From: a bacterium
Lineage (GTDB): Bacteria > Elusimicrobiota > Elusimicrobia > UBA1565 > UBA9628
Direction: 5' to 3'
Assembly (NCBI GenBank): GCA_021822495.1
Contig: JAKAQO010000001.1
Span: 638,808-702,807, forward strand
Length of the DNA: 64,000 bases
The notes under the pieces: generated by a model
Databases searched by the model: none
What the model was told of the DNA's origin: nothing
The model's input: only the letters and a program-made list of their open reading frames with translations
Position numbers and translations under genes: made by a program
In this document: piece after piece, positions 342-8,337 of the stretch
How positions within the stretch are numbered: the first letter of the stretch is position 1
Layout of the letters: the number at the start of each line of letters is the position of its first letter

Positions 342-347
342 TTACCA

Positions 348-361
348 GGAATCCCGGGGAT
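348..361. repeat. Upstream palindrome ATCCCGGGGAT
   Basis: Bases 351-361 form a short dyad (ATCCC, one base, GGGAT). The ten bases GGAATCCCGG at 348-357 are nearly repeated at 376-385 (GGATTCCCGG) inside the promoter palindrome downstream. This looks like a second half-operator for the same regulator, or the base of a terminator stem for the acyl-CoA dehydrogenase transcript. No T-run follows, so the operator reading is preferred. Confidence 0.4.
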
Positions 362-362
362 A

Positions 363-391
363 TTGAAATATACCGGGATTCCCGGTATAAT
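363..391 (+). promoter_or_regulatory. Sigma-70-type promoter with operator palindrome, leaderless
   Basis: TTGAAA at 363-368 and TATAAT at 386-391 are separated by exactly 17 bases, a near-perfect housekeeping promoter. The spacer is almost filled by a palindrome at 369-389 with 10-base arms (TATACCGGGA and TCCCGGTATA) around one central T, so a repressor bound there would block RNA polymerase. A start site about 7 bases after the -10 box falls on the ATG at 398, and no Shine-Dalgarno is present. A leaderless transcript is therefore likely. Confidence 0.75.
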
Positions 392-397
392 AGGGCT

Positions 398-1360
398 ATG
401 AAAATCCATATTCCCAATAGCGCTTTTCTTGGCAATATTGATCCTTTTTTGCGGAGCTACAATCCCTCCGAACCTGAAATTCTTGAAATTACAGCCAACG
501 AAAAATGGATTTCCGTTCACCCGCTTGTTCTTTCCATGATCGCCGCGCGCGGGCTCACCCTCAACCCTCAAAATATTCGATTTGAGAAGCTTGAGGCTAA
601 ATCCCGCCATTATTTAGTGCGCATGGGGTTGTTTAAACTTTTGGGCGTTGAATCCGGCATTGACGTTGTGGAGCATGAAGAAGCGGGCCGATTTATCCCT
701 CTTTCTCTCATCAAAACATCGGAAGACTTAAGTCGGTTTATCACGGAGATGATTCCGCTTCTCCATGCAGGCCCGGAACAGGCCAAAACTCTCGGCTACA
801 TCATCAGTGAATTGGTTCGTAACGTCTTGGAACATGCCGAGGCTCAAAATGGGGCCGTTCTTTGCGCGCAGTATTATCAGAAAAGTAACTCCATTCGAAT
901 CGGCATCGCCGATACGGGAGTCGGGATCAGAAAAACCATCTCTCGCTTTCATCAGGCGCCCACCGATCTTGAAGCCATTCGCCTTGCCCTGACCCCGGGA
1001 ATCACGGGGACGACCAGCCGCGAGGGCGGGACAGAACAGAACGCCGGAGCGGGGCTTTTTTTCATTAAGTCCATTGCCGCGGTTAATCGAGACTTCTTTG
1101 TTCTTTACAGTGGATCGGGGTTCTATAAGCTTCTAAAAAAATCTTCGGCTCGCAGATTTTCTCTAAAGGCCGATCCCTTCAAAGACCGGCATTCCAAGTC
1201 CGAGGATATGCCGTATTGGCAGGGAACCCTTGTGGGAATTGATATTACTCTCGATGAGACCGCTGAATTTACCCGTCTTCTGGACGCCATTCGAGAGACT
1301 TATAGCGAAGCCATCCAAGAAAGGCTCCGGGCCTCGCGAAAAAAACCGCGGTTTATATGA
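398..1360 (+). CDS. HATPase_c (GHKL) ATP-binding regulatory protein
   Basis: A 320-residue protein with a GHKL ATPase fold in its second half. The N-box ELVRNVLEH (about 138-146, Glu138 and Asn142), the G1 box DTGVGI (172-177) and the G2 box NAGAGL (215-220) are all visible. There is no histidine phosphoacceptor domain, sensor or membrane segment, so this is not an ordinary sensor kinase. The 130-residue N-terminal region is not recognised. The stop overlaps the start of a STAS-like gene (ATGA), which suggests an anti-sigma-kinase/antagonist-like partnership such as SpoIIAB/SpoIIAA. That functional link is inference. The gene is probably repressor-controlled, given the palindromic promoter. 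Confidence 0.8.
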   Translation: MKIHIPNSAFLGNIDPFLRSYNPSEPEILEITANEKWISVHPLVLSMIAARGLTLNPQNIRFEKLEAKSRHYLVRMGLFKLLGVESGIDVVEHEEAGRFIPLSLIKTSEDLSRFITEMIPLLHAGPEQAKTLGYIISELVRNVLEHAEAQNGAVLCAQYYQKSNSIRIGIADTGVGIRKTISRFHQAPTDLEAIRLALTPGITGTTSREGGTEQNAGAGLFFIKSIAAVNRDFFVLYSGSGFYKLLKKSSARRFSLKADPFKDRHSKSEDMPYWQGTLVGIDITLDETAEFTRLLDAIRETYSEAIQERLRASRKKPRFI

Positions 1361-1647
1361 TTGAAATTCATGTTCTCGAAAAATCCGGGAAATTCGCCGA
1401 AAATAAAGACGTATCGCGGGAAATTAGAATTCGTGAAATTTGGCCCGCGCTTGAGCGCAATGAGGAAGTCGTGCTTAATTTTGAGGGCGTTGAGGCGGCG
1501 ACGCAATCATTTATTCACGCTCTCATCAGCGACATTTTACGCAAGCAGGGAGATCGGGCTCTTGAGCGCATGAGCTTTAAATCCTGCAACGAAACCGTGC
1601 GCAAAATTATAGGCATCGTCGTGACTTATATGCAGGAAGGCGCGTAG
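1357..1647 (+). CDS. STAS-like (DUF4325-type) small protein
   Basis: A 96-residue soluble protein whose start overlaps the HATPase stop by four bases (ATGA), so the two are probably translated together. The pattern of a strand (EEVVLNFEGVEAATQSF), a helix (HALISDILRKQG) and a later strand resembles the STAS-like DUF4325 family, which is often found beside HATPase proteins. The STAS fold is that of anti-sigma-factor antagonists; here the expected phospho-serine loop would be around EAATQSF. The family has no settled function that I know of. Pairing with the kinase-like neighbour suggests a switch module. Product class is moderately sure, role unknown. Confidence 0.7.
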   Translation: MIEIHVLEKSGKFAENKDVSREIRIREIWPALERNEEVVLNFEGVEAATQSFIHALISDILRKQGDRALERMSFKSCNETVRKIIGIVVTYMQEGA

Positions 1648-1682: not shown

Positions 1683-1917
1683 TTATTTTTTAAGGAGGGA
1701 CACAATTCTGCGCTCAACGGAGTTGAGGCGCTCGCGGAGTTTCACTCGCGCCCGAAACAGCAACACCCGTAAATGAGTAGGGGAAATCCCCAAAATGTTA
1801 CACACGGATTCCGAACTTTCTCCCTCCGCCTCCTTAAGAAAAAAAGCTGTGCGCTGTTGGGCTGGCAAATTCTCGGTGCATTGTTCGATCATCCTCTTGA
1901 TTTCCCGCGTGAGGCTT
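1683..1917 (-). pseudogene. ECF sigma factor fragment (region 4 only)
   Basis: Only the C-terminal sigma region 4 of an extracytoplasmic-function sigma factor survives. The segment LPAQQRTAFFLKE is followed by the helix-turn-helix ESVCNILGISPTHLRVLLF. The homologous frame can be read back through SLTREIKRM to about base 1917, where it runs into the start of an unrelated gene on the other strand. An internal ATG at 1892 could yield a 69-residue peptide, but region 2, which binds core polymerase and the -10 box, is missing. I read this as a gene cut by the rearrangement that placed the metal island here. A small stand-alone HTH protein is the less likely alternative. Confidence 0.65.
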
Positions 1918-2251: not shown

Positions 2252-2566
2252 TCACCCCCCCTTTTTTTCCCATCCTTGCGGTCGTCCAAGGACCGCCGCG
2301 ATTTGATCGACGCTCGGCGCGCCGCCAAAGCGGCAAGCCCCGGAGCCTCCGGCGGCGGATGCTCCCGTCGTTATTTCCTTGCTTCCGACCATGATAGTCG
2401 GAGACGGGAAGCCGCGCCATTCCGCCGGCGCGCTTTCCGATCGCAGGTCGATCTCTTCCCAAACCGGGTCAAACCCCGCCCGAGACAACGCGGTCCTCAG
2501 ATTTTGCCGGGCTTGTTCGACGTTGGGACAGCCGTCAAAATAAAGCAGTTGAACCTTGACCTTCAT
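2252..2566 (-). CDS. DF-family thiol protein (thioredoxin-like)
   Basis: A 104-residue protein opening with a beta strand and the motif YFDGCPN (Cys13), characteristic of the small DF family, whose members are selenoproteins in some bacteria. Here the position is ordinary cysteine. Further features are the SPTIMVGSKEI stretch, where a cis-proline would lie, and a second cysteine (Cys78) in GSGACRFGG. The start is the ATG overlapping the merR stop (ATGA) rather than an upstream in-frame ATG inside merR. Co-transcription with a Hg-type MerR points to metal-thiol chemistry. Exact function is not established for the family, as far as I know. Confidence 0.75.
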   Translation of the reverse strand: MKVKVQLLYFDGCPNVEQARQNLRTALSRAGFDPVWEEIDLRSESAPAEWRGFPSPTIMVGSKEITTGASAAGGSGACRFGGAPSVDQIAAVLGRPQGWEKKGG

Positions 2567-2973
2567 CGTGGTTGTTCCTCCAAACACTCCAAAATCTGAC
2601 AGGTATCGATCATCGTCTTGGTTGCGCAAGTTCGAATCAAGCGCCTGAGCGCTTTTTCCATCGCGCGCAGGCTCGCCATCTTTTCTTTCACGCTGTCGAG
2701 CCGGGCCTGGGCCTGCCGCCTGACTCCCGCGCACTGCCCGCCGTGGCGTGTCTGCAGACTTAACAATCTTGCAATTTCGTTGAGAGTAAAGCCCAACCCC
2801 TGCGCATTTTTGATAAAGCGAATCTTTTTGATAGATTCATCGCCATACAACCGGTATCCCGATTCAAGACGGCTTTCCGGACGCAATAGTCCGCGCCGCT
2901 CGTAGTAATGCAGGGTCTGGATATTCACCTTGGCGAGTCTAGCCGCCCGGCCGATGGTCAACGTTTCGCTCAT
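2563..2973 (-). CDS. merR: MerR-type Hg(II)-responsive transcription regulator
   Basis: A 136-residue MerR protein with an N-terminal winged helix (TIGRAARLAKV, then LHYYERRGLL), a dimerisation helix and a C-terminal metal-binding loop. Cys81, Cys116 and Cys125 have the same spacings (35 and 9) as the Hg-binding trio Cys82/Cys117/Cys126 of Tn501 MerR, which strongly supports Hg(II) sensing. An extra Cys130 is present. The start was set at the ATG at 2973 because AGGAGGG lies seven bases upstream; the longer frame would run through the promoter. It overlaps the DF gene by four bases. Transcription is co-directional with its targets, as in Gram-positive mer operons. Confidence 0.9.
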   Translation of the reverse strand: MSETLTIGRAARLAKVNIQTLHYYERRGLLRPESRLESGYRLYGDESIKKIRFIKNAQGLGFTLNEIARLLSLQTRHGGQCAGVRRQAQARLDSVKEKMASLRAMEKALRRLIRTCATKTMIDTCQILECLEEQPR

Positions 2974-2992
2974 ATAGCGCCCTCCTATCCAT

Positions 2993-3024
2993 AGTATAAA
3001 CCCTATACCAAGGTATAGAGTCAA
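2993..3024 (-). promoter_or_regulatory. MerR-type promoter with long spacer and operator
   Basis: Read on the minus strand: TTGACT (3019-3024), 20 bases, TATACT (2993-2998). The spacer contains the dyad CTATACC-TT-GGTATAG (3003-3018). A 19-20-base spacer with a central dyad is the signature of promoters that MerR proteins twist open when the metal is bound. It drives merR itself, so the operon should be autoregulated and metal-induced. Confidence 0.85.
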
Positions 3025-3075
3025 GGGGCTTTGGGCGAATTTGGAATTTCAGCATAAGGAGGGTCGAAAAAAAAT

Positions 3076-3107
3076 CGTCATTCCCCGCGGCCGTAAGCGG
3101 GGAATCC
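3076..3107. repeat. Intergenic hairpin repeat (CGTCATTCC...GGAATCC type)
   Basis: ATTCCCCGC (3080-3088) and GCGGGGAAT (3097-3105) form a perfect 9-base stem with an 8-base loop. The flanks CGTCA and CCA recur in inverted, diverged form near 7710-7735. It lies between the divergent merR and arsR promoters and could insulate them, or be a mobile REP-like element. Confidence 0.5.
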
Positions 3108-3135
3108 AATTTCGTCTCGGCGACCCAAAGCGCCC

Positions 3136-3163
3136 TTGACTATTACACATAACTATGTAATAC
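3136..3163 (+). promoter_or_regulatory. arsR-operon promoter with operator dyad, leaderless
   Basis: TTGACT (3136-3141), 16 bases, TAATAC (3158-3163). The spacer holds TATTACA (3141-3147) and TGTAATA (3156-3162), a 7-base inverted repeat of the AT-rich kind bound by ArsR/SmtB repressors. The -10 box ends seven bases before the ATG at 3171 and no Shine-Dalgarno is seen, so a leaderless transcript is expected. Autorepression relieved by metal is the natural model. Confidence 0.75.
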
Positions 3164-3170
3164 TTGGACT

Positions 3171-3533
3171 ATGGCTCGCCCCATTGCTTCCATTTGTGTC
3201 CCCAAGCCTAAGTTGAACGCGCGTCCGCTGATCGGCCTGCGTCAGGCATCCGGCCTCGAAGGGCTTTTCAAGGTCCTCGCGAATGACACTCGCCTCCGGC
3301 TCCTTCATGCCTTGGCGCGGGAAAAAGAACTCTGCGTCCTGGATATGGCCCATCGCATCGGAATGAAGCCGCAGGCGGTTTCAAATCAACTTCAGCGCCT
3401 CGTCGGCAAGCGCATTCTGGCGTCAAGACGCGAAGGTCTCCAGATTTTCTATCGAATCGTCGATCCCTGCGTGACGGAGCTGCTCGACCGAGGCCTGTGC
3501 CTTCTTGAAGATTCGGGCGGAGGCAGACCGTGA
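3171..3533 (+). CDS. ArsR/SmtB-family metal-responsive repressor
   Basis: A 120-residue winged-helix repressor. The core ANDTRLRLLHAL and the recognition helix MKPQAVSNQLQRL are diagnostic of ArsR/SmtB. Cysteines lie at 9, 55 (in ELCVLDMA, where arsenic sensors carry CxC), 100 (VDPC) and 110. Only one cysteine occupies the classical alpha-3 site, so metal would probably be held with Cys100/Cys110 of the C-terminal helix, as in other thiol-based variants. The inducer (As, Hg, Cd, Pb) cannot be decided. It heads a four-gene operon in which every junction overlaps by four bases. Confidence 0.88.
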   Translation: MARPIASICVPKPKLNARPLIGLRQASGLEGLFKVLANDTRLRLLHALAREKELCVLDMAHRIGMKPQAVSNQLQRLVGKRILASRREGLQIFYRIVDPCVTELLDRGLCLLEDSGGGRP

Positions 3534-4693
3534 ACCGCGCGGAGTTGGATTCGGCGCTCGCGCAACTGCGCGACGCGATCAAGCACAAGAAATGCTGGGT
3601 CTGCGGCTGCCAACAGTCCTTCGCCCGGACACTCCGGGAAAGCCTTGATGAGATGCCGGAAGCGGATCGTCGAGAAATCGAGCCGCTCTTGAGCCGGTCC
3701 GAAGCGACATTTCGCCCGGTCGAGTACGACTGTCTGGGCTGCAAGGTCTGCTTTCCCGCGATAGCGACGAATGCCTTGGCGGGCGCATACCCGGCCTTCG
3801 CATCCGGCGAGGGCTGCGCTGTCGGCGCCGACGACAAGGAACGCTCCGGCTGGCCGCCTCTGCCTGGCAACTATGAGGTCCGGCGTTATCAAGCCGCTGT
3901 TGCCGTCTGCACTCTCAACTCTAAGAACATGATCCGCGAAGTGGTGGACCAAAATCATCCCGAAATTGGAATCGTCGGAACGCTCAATACCGAGAACCTC
4001 GGAATCGAACGGCTCATAAAGAACATCGTCTCCAACCCCCACATCCGCTTTCTGATCCTTTGCGGGGAGGATTCCAGGCAGAAGATCGGCCACCTCCCCG
4101 GGCAATCGCTGGCAAGCCTCTTCCAGCACGGGGTCGACAAAAACGGCCGCATCATCGGCGCGGAGGGCAGGCGGCCGGCGCTCAAGAACATCGAAGTCGG
4201 CCATGTGGATCGATTTCGCATGCAGGTCGAGCTTGTGCCGATGGTTTCATCCATGAATGCGGCGGAAATCCTGCGCGCGGCCGACTCTTGTGTCGGCAGG
4301 AATCCCGGAAGATTTCCAGATAACGGGTTTGCCGCGGCCGTCCCGACGGTCCAAGCTCACCCGCCGGAACGGTTGGTTCTTGATCCCAGCGGTTATTTTG
4401 TGATTTTCCCGGACAGATCGCGACGCCGCATCATGCTTGAGCACTACACGAACGACGGCATGCTCAGCCGCGTCATTGAGGGCCGCGATATCGGCGATAT
4501 CTATGCGACCGCGATCAGCTTGGGCCTTTTGAGCCGCCTCGACCACGCCTGCTATCTGGGCAAAGAGCTTGCCAAGGCGGAAAGCGCGCTTGCCTCCGGC
4601 TCGGAATATCGGCAGGACAAGGCTCCGGACTATCGGGGCGACGCAACCGATCCAAAATGCTCGGGAAAAGGATGTTGCGGGGAGAACGCATGA
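3530..4693 (+). CDS. MtrA-like corrinoid protein with DUF4346-like C-terminus
   Basis: A 387-residue protein, GTG start overlapping the arsR stop. Residues about 112-245 match the cobamide-binding subunit MtrA of archaeal tetrahydromethanopterin S-methyltransferase (TENLGIE, then SNPHIRFLILCG, then IGHLPGQS, then GRIIGAEG). His188 in IGHLPGQ corresponds to the histidine I recall ligating cobalt in MtrA (GHITGQ), so corrin binding looks intact. The N-terminal region has two cysteine clusters, CWVCGC (22-27) and CLGCKVC (68-74), fit for Fe-S or Zn. About 260-360 resembles DUF4346, and the tail KCSGKGCCGENA is thiol-rich. No transmembrane anchor, unlike archaeal MtrA. Methyl transfer to or from a metal(loid) is my inference from the operon. 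Confidence 0.78.
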   Translation: MNRAELDSALAQLRDAIKHKKCWVCGCQQSFARTLRESLDEMPEADRREIEPLLSRSEATFRPVEYDCLGCKVCFPAIATNALAGAYPAFASGEGCAVGADDKERSGWPPLPGNYEVRRYQAAVAVCTLNSKNMIREVVDQNHPEIGIVGTLNTENLGIERLIKNIVSNPHIRFLILCGEDSRQKIGHLPGQSLASLFQHGVDKNGRIIGAEGRRPALKNIEVGHVDRFRMQVELVPMVSSMNAAEILRAADSCVGRNPGRFPDNGFAAAVPTVQAHPPERLVLDPSGYFVIFPDRSRRRIMLEHYTNDGMLSRVIEGRDIGDIYATAISLGLLSRLDHACYLGKELAKAESALASGSEYRQDKAPDYRGDATDPKCSGKGCCGENA

Positions 4694-5115
4694 GGGCCGA
4701 AACGCCGCGCCAGAAAGGGATAATTCTGGCATTGACCGCGTTGGCCGTCGCCGGAGTCCTAATCGCCAAGGGCCATTTTGGTTCCAAAGTTCCAGTTGGC
4801 GGCGATAACTCTCCAATGGCAACCCCCGCCGTCTATCTTTTCCTCGACGAATCCGATCAAGATGGCGGCTGCCGCAGGATCTATTCTTTGTTTGAGGACG
4901 CAAGATCAACGCTGCCTCCAGGCGTCCATGCGGCTAGGGTGAACGTCAACGAGGATAACGGCCTCGTCGGCAAGTTCGGAGTCCGCGTTCTTCCAACCGT
5001 CGTTTTCGTGGACAAAACTGGAAAGGTCGTTGAAAGGATCGAGGGCGAAGGGCCGGAGGTCGAGACGCGGCTGCGCTCGGCTCTGGCCGAGGCGCCTCAA
5101 CTCCTCGCTCCATGA
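4690..5115 (+). CDS. Membrane-anchored thioredoxin-like protein with a single cysteine
   Basis: A 141-residue protein with one N-terminal transmembrane helix (about 10-27) and a thioredoxin fold outside the membrane. The active-site region reads DGGCRRI, so Cys61 is alone where CxxC is usual, and VLPTVVFVD supplies the cis-proline loop (Pro102). The start was set at 4690, which overlaps the preceding stop (ATGA) and has GGGGAG upstream; an earlier in-frame ATG at 4657 lies inside the preceding gene. A monothiol could pass a thiol-bound metal or be reduced by mixed disulfide with the CcdA-like neighbour. Partner and substrate are inferred. Confidence 0.75.
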   Translation: MRAETPRQKGIILALTALAVAGVLIAKGHFGSKVPVGGDNSPMATPAVYLFLDESDQDGGCRRIYSLFEDARSTLPPGVHAARVNVNEDNGLVGKFGVRVLPTVVFVDKTGKVVERIEGEGPEVETRLRSALAEAPQLLAP

Positions 5116-5756
5116 TTCTTCCGCTTCACGACGGCGCGACCGCGTTCGGGGCCGTCCTCGTCGGAGGCATCGTCTCGGCCTTTAATCCTTGTTGCCTGTC
5201 GATGAGCCCCGCGATGATGGCGCTGGTCGCCGATCACCATGCCCGCAAACTCCACTCAGCTTTGGTGGCGACCCTCGTAATCTGCGGTTTTGCTACTACG
5301 ATGGCGGCGTTGGGAGCCCTGAGTTCCACGCTAGGCTTGATTTTTGGGCACATGGGACACGGATTCTCTTATGCGGTTTCTGCCATCCCCATCTTGATGG
5401 CTTTACAAATGCTCGGCGTTATCGACATTCATCTTTCCGTGATACGAATGGCAGGGCTCGACGGCCATTTGGGGGCGATGACGGCGGGGGCCGCATATGC
5501 CCTTGTAGTCGCTCCCTGCGCTACGCCGATTCTTGCGTCCATACTCGCCTATTCGGCATCGAAGGGCAACATCGTCTACGGGACGAGTCTGCTTTGGGTC
5601 TATGGAGTCGGATTTTGCGGGCCTCTGTGCGCGTTCGGCGCGCTTTTTGCATCGCTGCGGCGGACGAGAATGATCGGACTAAATTTGGAAAGGTTAAACG
5701 CCTTCACTGCCGTAGTTCTCATGTTGCTTGGGCTTTCTCTGCTCTGGAAAGCCTGA
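5112..5756 (+). CDS. CcdA/DsbD-type transmembrane electron carrier
   Basis: A 214-residue, six-helix membrane protein of the CcdA family, which moves reducing equivalents from cytoplasmic thioredoxin across the inner membrane. The two redox helices are visible as FNPCCLSMSP (Cys27/Cys28) and VVAPCATPI (Cys136). The adjacent cysteine pair CC is a mild variation. The ATG overlaps the thioredoxin stop (ATGA). In this operon it would reduce the anchored single-cysteine thioredoxin and so supply electrons to the corrinoid protein's pathway or to an envelope step. Cytochrome c maturation is the alternative, but no ccm genes are nearby. Confidence 0.85.
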   Translation: MILPLHDGATAFGAVLVGGIVSAFNPCCLSMSPAMMALVADHHARKLHSALVATLVICGFATTMAALGALSSTLGLIFGHMGHGFSYAVSAIPILMALQMLGVIDIHLSVIRMAGLDGHLGAMTAGAAYALVVAPCATPILASILAYSASKGNIVYGTSLLWVYGVGFCGPLCAFGALFASLRRTRMIGLNLERLNAFTAVVLMLLGLSLLWKA

Positions 5757-5879
5757 TATCGCATAACGCGGTTCCGACCTCGGGTCCGGCCGTCGGCATG
5801 GGATAAGGCTCCGGCGACTCCCCCAAAATCGCCCCGGCGAGATGGGTACCTTATTTCTTTCCAAGCCCTTAATATCCAT
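5757..5879. other. Non-coding junction at right edge of GC-rich island
   Basis: No gene is apparent. Base composition changes visibly here, from the GC-rich metal operons to AT-richer sequence at about 5850. A frame open on the minus strand through this stretch continues from the truncated paralogue next door but has no family resemblance. It is most simply the scar where the island joined older chromosome. Confidence 0.5.
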
Positions 5880-6169
5880 GTTCGCGCTCAAAACCTCAGA
5901 AGATGACGGTTCAAAAGAAGTCCTGCTATTTTTTTTAAGCAAAGGCATTCGCTTTCTTATTTGGCCTAGCCGCACAAATACTTCAGAACCGTTCTTATTT
6001 TGATTGGCTTTCAAAGATGAGGTGAGTTCTCCAAAAACTTGGCCAGAATTGTCTTTCGCCGCTTCTAAAGAATCTTCAGCTTGAGTTTTTAAAACGGAAA
6101 CGAGCCCCAAAGAAAGAACGAGCCCGGAAAGAAAAACAGATTTTCTCGTTTTATCATTCCCCCATTCAT
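5880..6169 (-). pseudogene. Truncated, frameshifted third paralogue of a secreted family
   Basis: The minus-strand frame carries a signal-peptide-like stretch (SVFLSGLVLSLGLVSVL) and then SLEAAKDNSGQVFGEL, which matches SLERAKNDSSQAFGEL and ESSKVASDRAFGE of the two neighbours. No ATG is in this frame: the ATGs at 6169 and 6157 lie in another frame that stops after about 22 codons, so a small frameshift near 6150 separates start from body. The C-terminal half present in the paralogues is absent, replaced by island sequence. It directly follows the stop of the preceding paralogue (TGATG). A TTG start at 6110 would drop the signal peptide. Confidence 0.6.
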
Positions 6170-6801
6170 CATTGCGAAATTAAATCCGTAGAAAAATATT
6201 TTTCCCAACTGGTAAAATCAGGTTTAGATTCCCCTTGAGCCCAGTTTTGAGTGGAACCCGCTTTGATCGCTTCACTTCCCGCGCCAACCGCCGCCCCCAC
6301 CACGCTTCCAGCCAGATTTCCCGCTTGAAGTAATAATCCCCCTGTGACAACCACGGGCAAAAGAACAAGCCAAAACGCCGCGCCAAGCGCTGGAGAAGTT
6401 TGAGCGGCCGCGGAAACAGTCTCAATAGAACTGTTAATCATATTTTTTCCAGGCTGACTGCCAATTTCAGTTCCTACTACAGCGCCTGATTTAATTCCAC
6501 CAAGAACATTTCGCCGAGGTTTTTCTAATGGCGACCAAGAATTTTCCATAGAATTATTTTTTGTTTCTTTTATTTGCCCTGAACTCTTCTTGAGAAAAAT
6601 TCTTGAGTGAGAAGAAATATTTCGCAGTTGAAGCATTGGCGAAAGCGCTGGAGAAGAATGATTTTGCTTAAAGCCTTCCCTTAATTCCCCAAACGCTTGA
6701 CTTGAATCATTTTTTGCTCTCTCTAAACTTTCCGCATGGAGTAAATGAGAAAACACAGTTAAAACAGCGCCAAAAATAAAAAGGATTTTAAATTTTTTCA
6801 T
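6169..6801 (-). CDS. Secreted protein of unknown tandem family, member 2
   Basis: A 210-residue protein with an N-terminal signal peptide (MKKFKILFIFGAVLTVFSHL, cleavage probably after HAES). It has a polar serine-rich middle and a C-terminal hydrophobic, glycine/alanine-rich hairpin (ALGAAFWLVLLPVVVTGG, then GSVVGAAVGAGSEAIKAGS) that could insert in a membrane. It shares with its upstream neighbour the motif A-x-x-x-S/D-x-A-FGE near the N-terminus and the ending GST-x-NW. The two genes overlap by four bases. I do not recognise the family. The glycine-zipper-like C-terminus suggests envelope association. Confidence 0.7.
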   Translation of the reverse strand: MKKFKILFIFGAVLTVFSHLLHAESLERAKNDSSQAFGELREGFKQNHSSPALSPMLQLRNISSHSRIFLKKSSGQIKETKNNSMENSWSPLEKPRRNVLGGIKSGAVVGTEIGSQPGKNMINSSIETVSAAAQTSPALGAAFWLVLLPVVVTGGLLLQAGNLAGSVVGAAVGAGSEAIKAGSTQNWAQGESKPDFTSWEKYFSTDLISQ

Positions 6802-7448
6802 TGATTGACTCCGCCTTCATTGGCTATTTTTCCTAAGGCTTCCGTGGCTAGCCGCGCGGAATTTGACGACTTTGTTGAAGGAGTTTGTGAGGTGGGATCT
6901 GGCCAGTTTTTTGTCGAACCGGGTTTAATCACTTCAGCCGCCGCTCCTATCACGGATCCAGCCGCCGCCCCTGCTGTTGCTCCAACAGCCATCAACATCA
7001 CGCCCGCGGTAAAAATTAATGAAAAAGGAAGCGCAAGAATAAAACCAAGGAGGCCATTTCCCAAAACATCCCCAATTTTTAATGTCGCTCGATTCATTTG
7101 ATTTTGAATCCATATCCCAGGCTTAGTTCCCAATTTCCCGCCATCTACAAAACCAGAGATCACTCCTCTCTGAATATTTCTCACATCCCCTTGAGGGCAT
7201 GACGGAACTTGAGTTGCATTTTGTGAAAAGCGAGAAGAATGGGCCAAGGTTAATTGAGACTGGGCAGCTATCTGATGGAGAGCCTGCTCCGAGTTAAACC
7301 CAGAAGGGTTTTGACTCTGGGAAAATGCGCTGTTATTTTCTCCAAAGGCTCTATCTGAAGCTACCTTGCTACTTTCCAAATCTCCCGCCCAAACTTTGGC
7401 GGAAAAAAACGCAAATACAACCACATAGGAAAAAATTTTAAATCTCAT
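6798..7448 (-). CDS. Secreted protein of unknown tandem family, member 1
   Basis: First gene of the tandem family, 216 residues. The start at 7448 has a perfect AAGGAGG eight bases upstream; a longer frame from 7487 is less likely. It has a signal peptide (FKIFSYVVVFAFFSAKVWA), the shared motif SSKVASDRAFGE, and a C-terminal pair of hydrophobic segments (LLGFILALPFSLIFTAGVMLM, then GATAGAAAGSVIGAAAEVIKPGS). No catalytic motif is visible. Divergence between members 1 and 2 is high while architecture is kept, which fits an old tandem duplication with selection on the membrane hairpin and the FGE motif. Function unknown. Confidence 0.7.
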   Translation of the reverse strand: MRFKIFSYVVVFAFFSAKVWAGDLESSKVASDRAFGENNSAFSQSQNPSGFNSEQALHQIAAQSQLTLAHSSRFSQNATQVPSCPQGDVRNIQRGVISGFVDGGKLGTKPGIWIQNQMNRATLKIGDVLGNGLLGFILALPFSLIFTAGVMLMAVGATAGAAAGSVIGAAAEVIKPGSTKNWPDPTSQTPSTKSSNSARLATEALGKIANEGGVNQ

Positions 7449-7535
7449 TACCCCAACCTCCTTGAAAAGACTTTTCCATAAACTCACCCTAACTGCTTTA
7501 CTCCTATTTGTTAGCAGAAATTTTTTAAGAAGGGA

Positions 7536-7773: not shown

Positions 7774-8337
7774 CTAGTTCTCGCGCGATAAGAGTTTCAA
7801 AAATTCTTCCCGGGTGCGGGAATCCTTGCGGAAAGAACCGAGCATGGCGCTAGTGATAGTGGGAGACAAAAGGCTTTTGGCGCCCCGCATTTCCATGCAC
7901 AAGTGTCTTGCTTCAATGACAACACCGACTCCCAGGGGGCTGAGCTTATCCTTGAGAATTTCAGCGATTTGGCTCGTTAGCCGCTCTTGCACTTGGAGCC
8001 TGCGGGCGAAAGCTTCGACGAGTTTTGGAATTTTAGAAAGTCCGACTACTTTTTTATCCGGAATATAGGCGACATGAACCTTTCCAAAAAAAGGAAGAAG
8101 ATGGTGCTCGCAAAGCGAATAGAAATTAATGTCTTTAACCAGAACCATTTCGCTGTAGGCGACCGTAAAGAGAGCGTCATTGATAATGGCGTCCGGATCG
8201 GCGGTATAACCCCAGGTCATTTCTTTTAAGGATTTTTCCACCCGTTCCGGAGTTTTAAGAAGTCCTTCCCGATTTGGGTCTTCGCCTAGGAGTTTGAGAA
8301 TATCTTTGATGTTATCTGAAATACGAGGATTAGGCAT
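7774..8337 (-). CDS. folE: GTP cyclohydrolase I
   Basis: A 187-residue type I GTP cyclohydrolase, which opens the imidazole ring of GTP to give dihydroneopterin triphosphate, the first step of folate and other pterin routes. The zinc ligands are visible in [10 protein letters not shown] and RHLCMEMRG. Length is normal for the bacterial enzyme. Its ATG overlaps the tldD stop by one base (TAATG), making it the last gene of a long minus-strand operon. Later pterin enzymes of the window (FolM/PTR1-like and PTPS-like) lie 54 kb away at 61970-63114. Confidence 0.96.

Follow-up and report, generated by a model that had tools for sequence, protein, structure and literature searches.

The question raised by this locus is whether a kinase-like gene and the small STAS-like gene that overlaps it, situated behind a promoter filled with palindromes, constitute a unit in their own right and, if so, what that unit controls. 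Within the window, i.e., the whole stretch of 64,000 nucleotides that was analyzed, a compact cassette at positions 344-1647 (forward strand) comprises two operators, a promoter and two genes, designated HAT (398-1360, forward), which encodes a STAS-like plus GHKL kinase-like protein of 320 residues, and DUF (1357-1647, forward), which encodes a DUF4325 STAS-like protein of 96 residues. That HAT, DUF and their leaderless, dual-palindrome promoter are inherited as one unit is strongly supported. The cassette is best read, with a probability of roughly 0.6, as a kinase-STAS switch that stands alone, moves horizontally and represses its own expression, and it is probably defence-like or toxin-antitoxin-like in character.

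The promoter and its paired operators

The promoter consists of a -35 element, TTGAAA (363-368, forward; TTGACA is the version in most relatives), a 17-nt spacer (369-385) and a -10 element, TATAAT (386-391, forward), as described in an earlier note on this DNA, and the 21-base palindrome reported there is likewise present, TATACCGGGAtTCCCGGTATA being perfect over positions 369-389 and overlapping the -10 box. Two 15-bp palindromes (ACCGGGAWTCCCGGT), here termed operators, flank the -35 box. Operator 1, ACCAGGAATCCCGGG (344-358), agrees with 12 of the 14 specified bases of ACCGGGANTCCCGGT, while operator 2 (372-386) is the core of the 21-bp palindrome, fills the spacer up to and into TATAAT, and represents the sole exact core site in the host genome. 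Transcription is predicted to start at position 398 (forward), the first base of the ATG and 7 nt after the -10 element, such that the transcript would be leaderless. Just past the stop codon of DUF there is an imperfect inverted repeat, AAAAAGGGACTGTCCCCTTTTGGGGG (1646-1672), which may be a terminator or a REP-like element.

Judged from the window by itself, the palindrome pair exceeds chance only slightly (two matches with at most three mismatches against 0.20 expected, with 4 of 100 shuffles yielding two or more), and it is taken as real because it is conserved across loci. Both palindromes, with centres 27-28 bp apart and TTGA between them, were found in 30 of the 31 loci with a readable promoter, the 31st being archaeal; none of the 30 readable bacterial promoters lacks either operator or the intervening -35 box, which supports the operator control proposed previously. 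With the transcription start set 7 nt after the -10 box, the predicted leader has a modal length of 0 nt over the 30 bacterial promoters and measures -1 to 2 nt in 26 of them (4, 4, 5 and 8 nt in the remaining four). No Shine-Dalgarno-like motif was observed in any of the 31 loci, and the leaderless start claimed for this locus, with the ATG located where transcription should begin, is thereby upheld as a prediction. Two copies, L032 (same contig as L006) and L035 (same record as L101), were excluded from the promoter and tree counts and retained among the 23 rows of the homologue, charge and overlap tallies; L039 and L019/L106 are without the 5' end of HAT and fall outside the promoter count, and L024 is a remnant. 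In one cassette, L100 (G210:C11:102097-102167), three operators lie in tandem with two -35 boxes, spaced at 28 bp.

The finding that the operators occur almost nowhere but at cassettes is strongly supported. Across 340 genomes of the host phylum Elusimicrobiota, 40 exact sites were detected in 27 genomes, compared to a single site for a reversed-pattern control in the same genomes, and 38 of these 40 fall at an intact cassette or at one of four remnants, i.e., G030 (internal deletion), G205 (approximately 58 codons remaining, beside a phage-type integrase), G208 (approximately 19 codons remaining) and G201 (operators only). The two exact sites elsewhere, G034:C52 and G098:C66, are single and do not show the paired layout. 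A wider regulon was considered and rejected, no convincing second target being apparent: G034:C52 lies inside an ORF, and G098:C66 lies in sequence judged to be coding by eye only. In a separate set of seven genomes the exact sites are present at cassettes only, and six archaeal genomes hold one site each with at most one mismatch, at the cassette. Five extra one-mismatch sites outside the cassette in the spirochaete genome G341, and three in G343, count against an operator confined to cassettes.

Occurrence, transfer and neighbourhood of the cassette

Relatives of HAT with 64-74% identity were identified in 16 other genomes among the 57 searched (one copy being cut by a contig end), or in 22 of the 57 when distant relatives are included. 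Within the Elusimicrobiota, HAT is present in 27 of 340 genomes, and it was also found in records labelled Chlamydiae, Spirochaetia, Nitrospira, Omnitrophota and Thermoplasmatales; the phylum of G341 yielded one positive genome out of 296, and the archaeal phylum of G342 seven out of 292 (E <= 1e-40). Identity is 64-74% across bacterial phyla, 54-66% in six of the archaeal genomes and 37% in the seventh. Closer to the host, the same-family genome G023 holds the same cassette as L006/L032, and the HAT-DUF pair is absent from all four same-genus genomes.

Six of the seven archaeal copies retain the palindrome, which lies 56-58 bases ahead of the start codon and directly upstream of an A+T-rich, TATA-like stretch, and half of a second palindrome remains near the start in two of these six; the seventh copy, that with 37% identity, has no palindrome. 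In our reading the A+T-rich stretch may represent a TATA box and the archaeal transcripts would be leaderless. Archaeal marker genes were identified on two of the cassette contigs (ABCE1/RLI in L037 and the archaeosine transglycosylase gene TgtA in L186), and the archaeal status of the other contigs rests on group assignment. In a tree of 36 rows, the bootstrap of which is incompletely settled, the six archaeal copies group with two bacterial rows (100/99), and the chlamydial and spirochaetal rows group with one Elusimicrobia row (96/94). Because bins may hold stray contigs, less weight is given to cases known from one record each than to the archaeal set. Enzymes are the usual cargo of gene transfer between bacteria and archaea; here, the crossing includes a regulated unit together with its operator, the promoter having been rebuilt for the other transcription machinery and the operator kept.

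In the window, the cassette forms the left end of an insertion of about 7.45 kb (325 to about 7776-7792) between an acyl-CoA dehydrogenase gene and folE. This insertion is absent from G001 and G004, in which folE lies within approximately 10 bases of the acyl-CoA dehydrogenase gene. Neither a transposase nor an end repeat was found with the cassette, and the loci have no DNA in common outside the stretch from operator 1 to the end of DUF. A phage origin was rejected, as no relatives were detected in viral contigs by protein or by promoter pattern; phage and plasmid matches are distant, with at most 32% identity. The patchy distribution, horizontal movement and frequent decay of the cassette are in agreement with the conflict- or stress-like life style previously suggested.

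No conserved third gene was found beside the cassettes among the neighbours compared across loci. When 85 of 215 neighbour ORFs (from 22 of 32 cassette loci) were scanned alongside 85 of 120 control ORFs, 55 PADLOC families matched at 1e-15 near cassettes compared to three in the controls. Among the matches listed (25 of the 55 families), AbiEi and AbiEii are represented by two proteins each and PDC-S01 by three, and AbiEii also occurs beside an archaeal cassette copy. As many other neighbours are housekeeping genes, this is regarded as an enrichment in defence genes and not as a defence island. The survey of defence-island context called for in the earlier note thus has a divided outcome, in that PADLOC matches exceed those of the controls and many copies nevertheless lie beside housekeeping genes, but an occurrence in housekeeping contexts only, which would have spoken against a conflict role, was not observed. 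DUF4143/AAA_14 ATPase genes also recur near cassettes (L048, L049, L054 and L182), in bacteria as well as beside an archaeal copy.

The broken ECF sigma gene remarked upon next to the pair is indeed a remnant, retaining region 4 only (1683-1892, reverse strand; Sigma70_r4_2, 44.8 bits). A functional link to it is unsupported because no sigma gene is conserved beside other cassette copies, sigma-70 domains being present in 2 of the 85 neighbour proteins scanned. Control by a sigma factor was therefore discarded as an explanation, the ECF remnant being local to this locus and not conserved with the cassette.

The two proteins and the systems they resemble

DUF matches PF14213 with 42.1 bits (cut-off 23), and its AF2 model (pLDDT 94.4) places all 96 residues within a STAS fold. 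Its structural matches are STAS folds with Z values of up to 7.9, which are by themselves middling and leave SpoIIAA, RsbS and RsbV tied within approximately one unit. Up to E = 0.1, the DUF profile finds a single sequence in the PDB, that of Escherichia VapS (9z7o), a weak hit at E = 0.066. A candidate phosphoacceptor site, T49-Q50-S51 (1501-1509, forward), is located at the start of STAS helix 2: the motif TQSF is present in 23 of 23 DUF homologues, with T49, Q50 and S51 invariant, and the VapS phosphosite (S48, counted from the tag) aligns with Q50, one residue off both T49 and S51.

For HAT, the Pfam models HATPase_c_2 (25.5 bits, cut-off 27.4) and HATPase_c (24.4 bits, cut-off 26.4) both score just below threshold. 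The GHKL domain (residues 108-285; 719-1252, forward) exhibits invariant motifs, i.e., an N-box (E138...N142), a G1 box (D172-G174-G176) and a G2 box (N215-A-G-A-G), and its best structural match is SpoIIAB (Z 9.5 over 133 residues). The AF2 model of HAT is of moderate confidence (pLDDT 74.7). From the strand-helix order and from relatives, residues 1-105 or thereabouts (398-712, forward; W37 invariant) appear to form a second, STAS-like domain, so named by analogy with CapK/VapK, and the description of this ATPase as being without a sensor is probably wrong because of this N-terminal domain. Searches by sequence for solved relatives of HAT returned nothing convincing (two matches with E > 0.7 in one search, none in another), and neither HAT nor DUF contains a recognised DNA-binding domain according to Pfam and the AF2 models. 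The last 20 residues of HAT form a basic tail (1298-1357, forward) with a mean net charge of +6.2 over 23 homologues, DUF averaging -3.3; this basic tail next to an acidic partner is a weak hint that the kinase may touch DNA, and the tail is a candidate for that contact. The PADLOC model of DrmA (PDLC02567) matches HAT with E = 8.4e-20 through its first 250 positions. Membership of DISARM was rejected, given that the match is limited to positions 47-248 of a model with 1750 positions, and its confinement to that part implies that some proteins filed as DrmA probably carry a STAS-GHKL-like N-terminus.

The two genes overlap by four bases (ATGA), as they do in every complete copy inspected, including the archaeal ones, and the pairing of a GHKL ATPase with a DUF4325-type protein noted previously is confirmed. 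Both genes are under purifying selection, with dN/dS values of 0.03-0.22 in 12 of 14 pairwise comparisons (of the other two, one is zero and one saturated). The partnership is further supported by a natural fusion of the kinase and DUF4325 parts into a single protein of 430 residues (L064:356-1645, reverse strand). This fusion gene adjoins a HigB-like/HTH gene pair, named by eye.

The resemblance of the GHKL domain to SpoIIAB and the STAS fold of DUF support the view that the pair is akin to a kinase and its STAS antagonist. The cassette shares the fold of both partners, and likely their chemistry, with SpoIIAB-SpoIIAA and RsbW-RsbV, yet differs from them in having no linked sigma factor, in possessing an extra N-terminal STAS-like domain, and in being a self-operated mobile unit. 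Its layout is also that of type II toxin-antitoxin operons, which are compact, mobile and autorepressed with operators inside the promoter, although no toxin and no DNA-binding antitoxin of a recognised family is encoded.

CapK-CapS is the nearest known counterpart: there the kinase CapK is switched on by ssDNA and phosphorylates CapS, a repressor that then comes off its palindromic sites (Chambers et al., EMBO J 2026, PMC13373217). As in that system, the cassette encodes a STAS plus GHKL kinase immediately followed by a STAS partner with a conserved Ser/Thr at the start of helix 2 (T49-Q50-S51), palindromic sites lie at its own promoter, autoregulation is predicted, and the setting is one of conflict. 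According to the text of PMC13373217, however, CapS binds DNA through a C-terminal winged helix, which DUF does not possess; CapK has an N-terminal HTH, albeit a dispensable one, where HAT starts with the STAS-like domain and no HTH family was found; and CapS sites (TTAA half-sites) precede capS and the downstream operon and not the kinase gene, whereas the cassette operators precede HAT. Furthermore, 348 of 443 capKS pairs are reported in that text to precede an immune operon, whereas no such operon follows the cassette and no downstream gene is shared among loci. The STAS-like domain of CapK is described there as helping to form the ssDNA sensor, with an aromatic residue at the ssDNA groove (CapK W68, VapK F54); W37 of HAT is invariant among homologues and is a candidate counterpart of CapK W68.

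The same paper describes VapKSC, comprising a related kinase, a STAS antitoxin and a PIN toxin (PMC13373217). The cassette resembles VapK-VapS in its STAS-GHKL kinase and small STAS protein, VapS being also the best, if weak, PDB match of the DUF profile, but no VapC/PIN gene follows DUF, and the text of PMC13373217 mentions no operator at the vapKSC promoter. Given the shared kinase-STAS core and palindromes, and the missing winged helix, PIN gene and operon, the cassette probably works like CapKS by analogy and is not a member of it. Among the papers listed by literature searches on CapK/VapK and on GHKL, STAS and toxin-antitoxin, PMC13373217 was the sole relevant one.

Other kinase-STAS operons in Elusimicrobiota include L022, L027 and L028; in L022 and L027 a PIN gene follows, making these loci VapKSC-like by their gene content. 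L029 holds another kinase-STAS pair; upstream of its position 725 (reverse strand), an inverted repeat of 10-12 bp, TTTCACCAT...ATGGTGAAA, adjoins a TATAAT that lies 6 nt before an ATG, a similarly leaderless and operator-like layout of another sequence. Such a layout was not clearly seen in L020, L021, L022, L023, L026, L027 or L028, and since L029 is the only one to show it, no general tie between leaderless operator promoters and kinase-STAS pairs is claimed.

A probable self-repressing switch and its rivals

We consider it very probable that the cassette makes its own repressor, i.e., that DUF, HAT or a complex of both is bound to the two palindromes over the promoter. The repressor is sought within the pair because the operator travels with only these two genes through two domains of life, which differ in their transcription machinery, and in one or both of the proteins because no third gene is conserved; this identification of the DNA binder proceeds by elimination, since a recognised DNA-binding domain is missing from both. 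HAT would then, as seems likely, use ATP to phosphorylate DUF at T49 or S51, a step modelled on CapK-CapS and SpoIIAB-SpoIIAA, thereby breaking the repressor and opening the promoter. More tentatively, and at somewhat less than even odds, the trigger might be ssDNA or something akin to it that arises from DNA damage or phage attack, sensed in the groove between the STAS and GHKL domains of HAT. An equally tentative suggestion is that the output would be a burst of HAT and DUF acting on a host or invader target in the style of a toxin-antitoxin or abortive-defence system, the pair itself being proposed as the output because the operator precedes no other gene and the unit ends with DUF.

One objection to the autorepressed-switch reading is that it leaves a switch with no target but itself, and so with no evident output; the one-residue offset of the VapS phosphosite from T49 and S51 and the moderate confidence of the HAT model likewise count against it. 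The fuller version, in which a pair with no known DNA-binding domain reads a 15-bp palindrome, silences both bacterial -35/-10 and archaeal TATA promoters, and is its own effector, strikes us as rather doubtful; were it correct, the palindrome would most likely be contacted by the basic tail of the kinase or by a kinase-STAS complex. No effectorless immune or addiction unit of such a kind was found in the literature searches made on DUF4325, on CapK/VapK, and on GHKL, STAS and toxin-antitoxin.

Of the competing explanations, a two-gene toxin-antitoxin system, in which HAT is a toxin kinase acting on a host target, DUF is its antitoxin and their complex autorepresses the operon, is the one we hold to be unlikely while granting it a real chance. 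A small, overlapping two-gene operon with paired operators would fit it well, as would the patchy distribution, the transfer and the remnants, the AbiEi/AbiEii neighbours at some loci, and the precedent of VapS as a STAS antitoxin (PMC13373217). It sits less easily with the larger protein being encoded first and with the lack of any toxin fold besides the GHKL kinase, and the toxin of VapKSC is a separate PIN gene that is absent from the cassette.

A partner switch of the SpoIIAB/RsbW type, holding a host sigma factor or another regulator, appears improbable. It draws on the structural proximity of the HAT GHKL domain to SpoIIAB (Z 9.5) and of DUF to SpoIIAA/RsbV (Z 6-7), but no conserved sigma gene adjoins the copies, the cassette brings its own operators, and the unit persists in archaea, which use TFB and not sigma factors. 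Least credible, in our estimation, is that a host regulator binds the palindromes, or that they serve as ends for recombination and not as operators. The absence of a DNA-binding domain in the pair and the position of operator 1 at the left edge of the shared DNA speak for this explanation, yet a host regulator would need to be common to bacteria and archaea, the sites are confined to cassettes, the position of the palindrome follows the promoter parts in both domains, and no copy of it was seen at the right end. The self-repressing kinase-STAS switch is accordingly preferred. It suggests that the switch known from immune operons also exists as a free-standing unit, whose ancestral job may hence not be the control of effector operons. 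Retention of the operator across domains provides a natural test of which protein reads it, and the cross-domain cassette one of how a single repressor can silence two kinds of RNA polymerase.

Elsewhere in the host genome, a second DUF4325 gene with no kinase alongside (L002, G000:C6:204543-207659) precedes a gene for a PIN-domain protein and a large ORF resembling restriction enzymes, possibly an orphan VapS-VapC pair judging from its gene content. Within the insertion, the region 2255-5753 encodes a MerR protein (2566-3024, reverse strand), an ArsR-like protein (3171-3530, forward), an MtrA-like plus PterinBD protein (3530-4690, forward; PF04208, 136.7 bits), a DUF2703-like protein and a DsbD-like membrane protein, and resembles a metal- or metalloid-related island that includes an unusual methyltransferase-like gene. 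Beyond it, three successive ORFs (5694-7487, reverse strand) with secreted-looking N-termini share, by eye, an 'SSQAFGEL'-type motif and may represent a tandem paralogue family.
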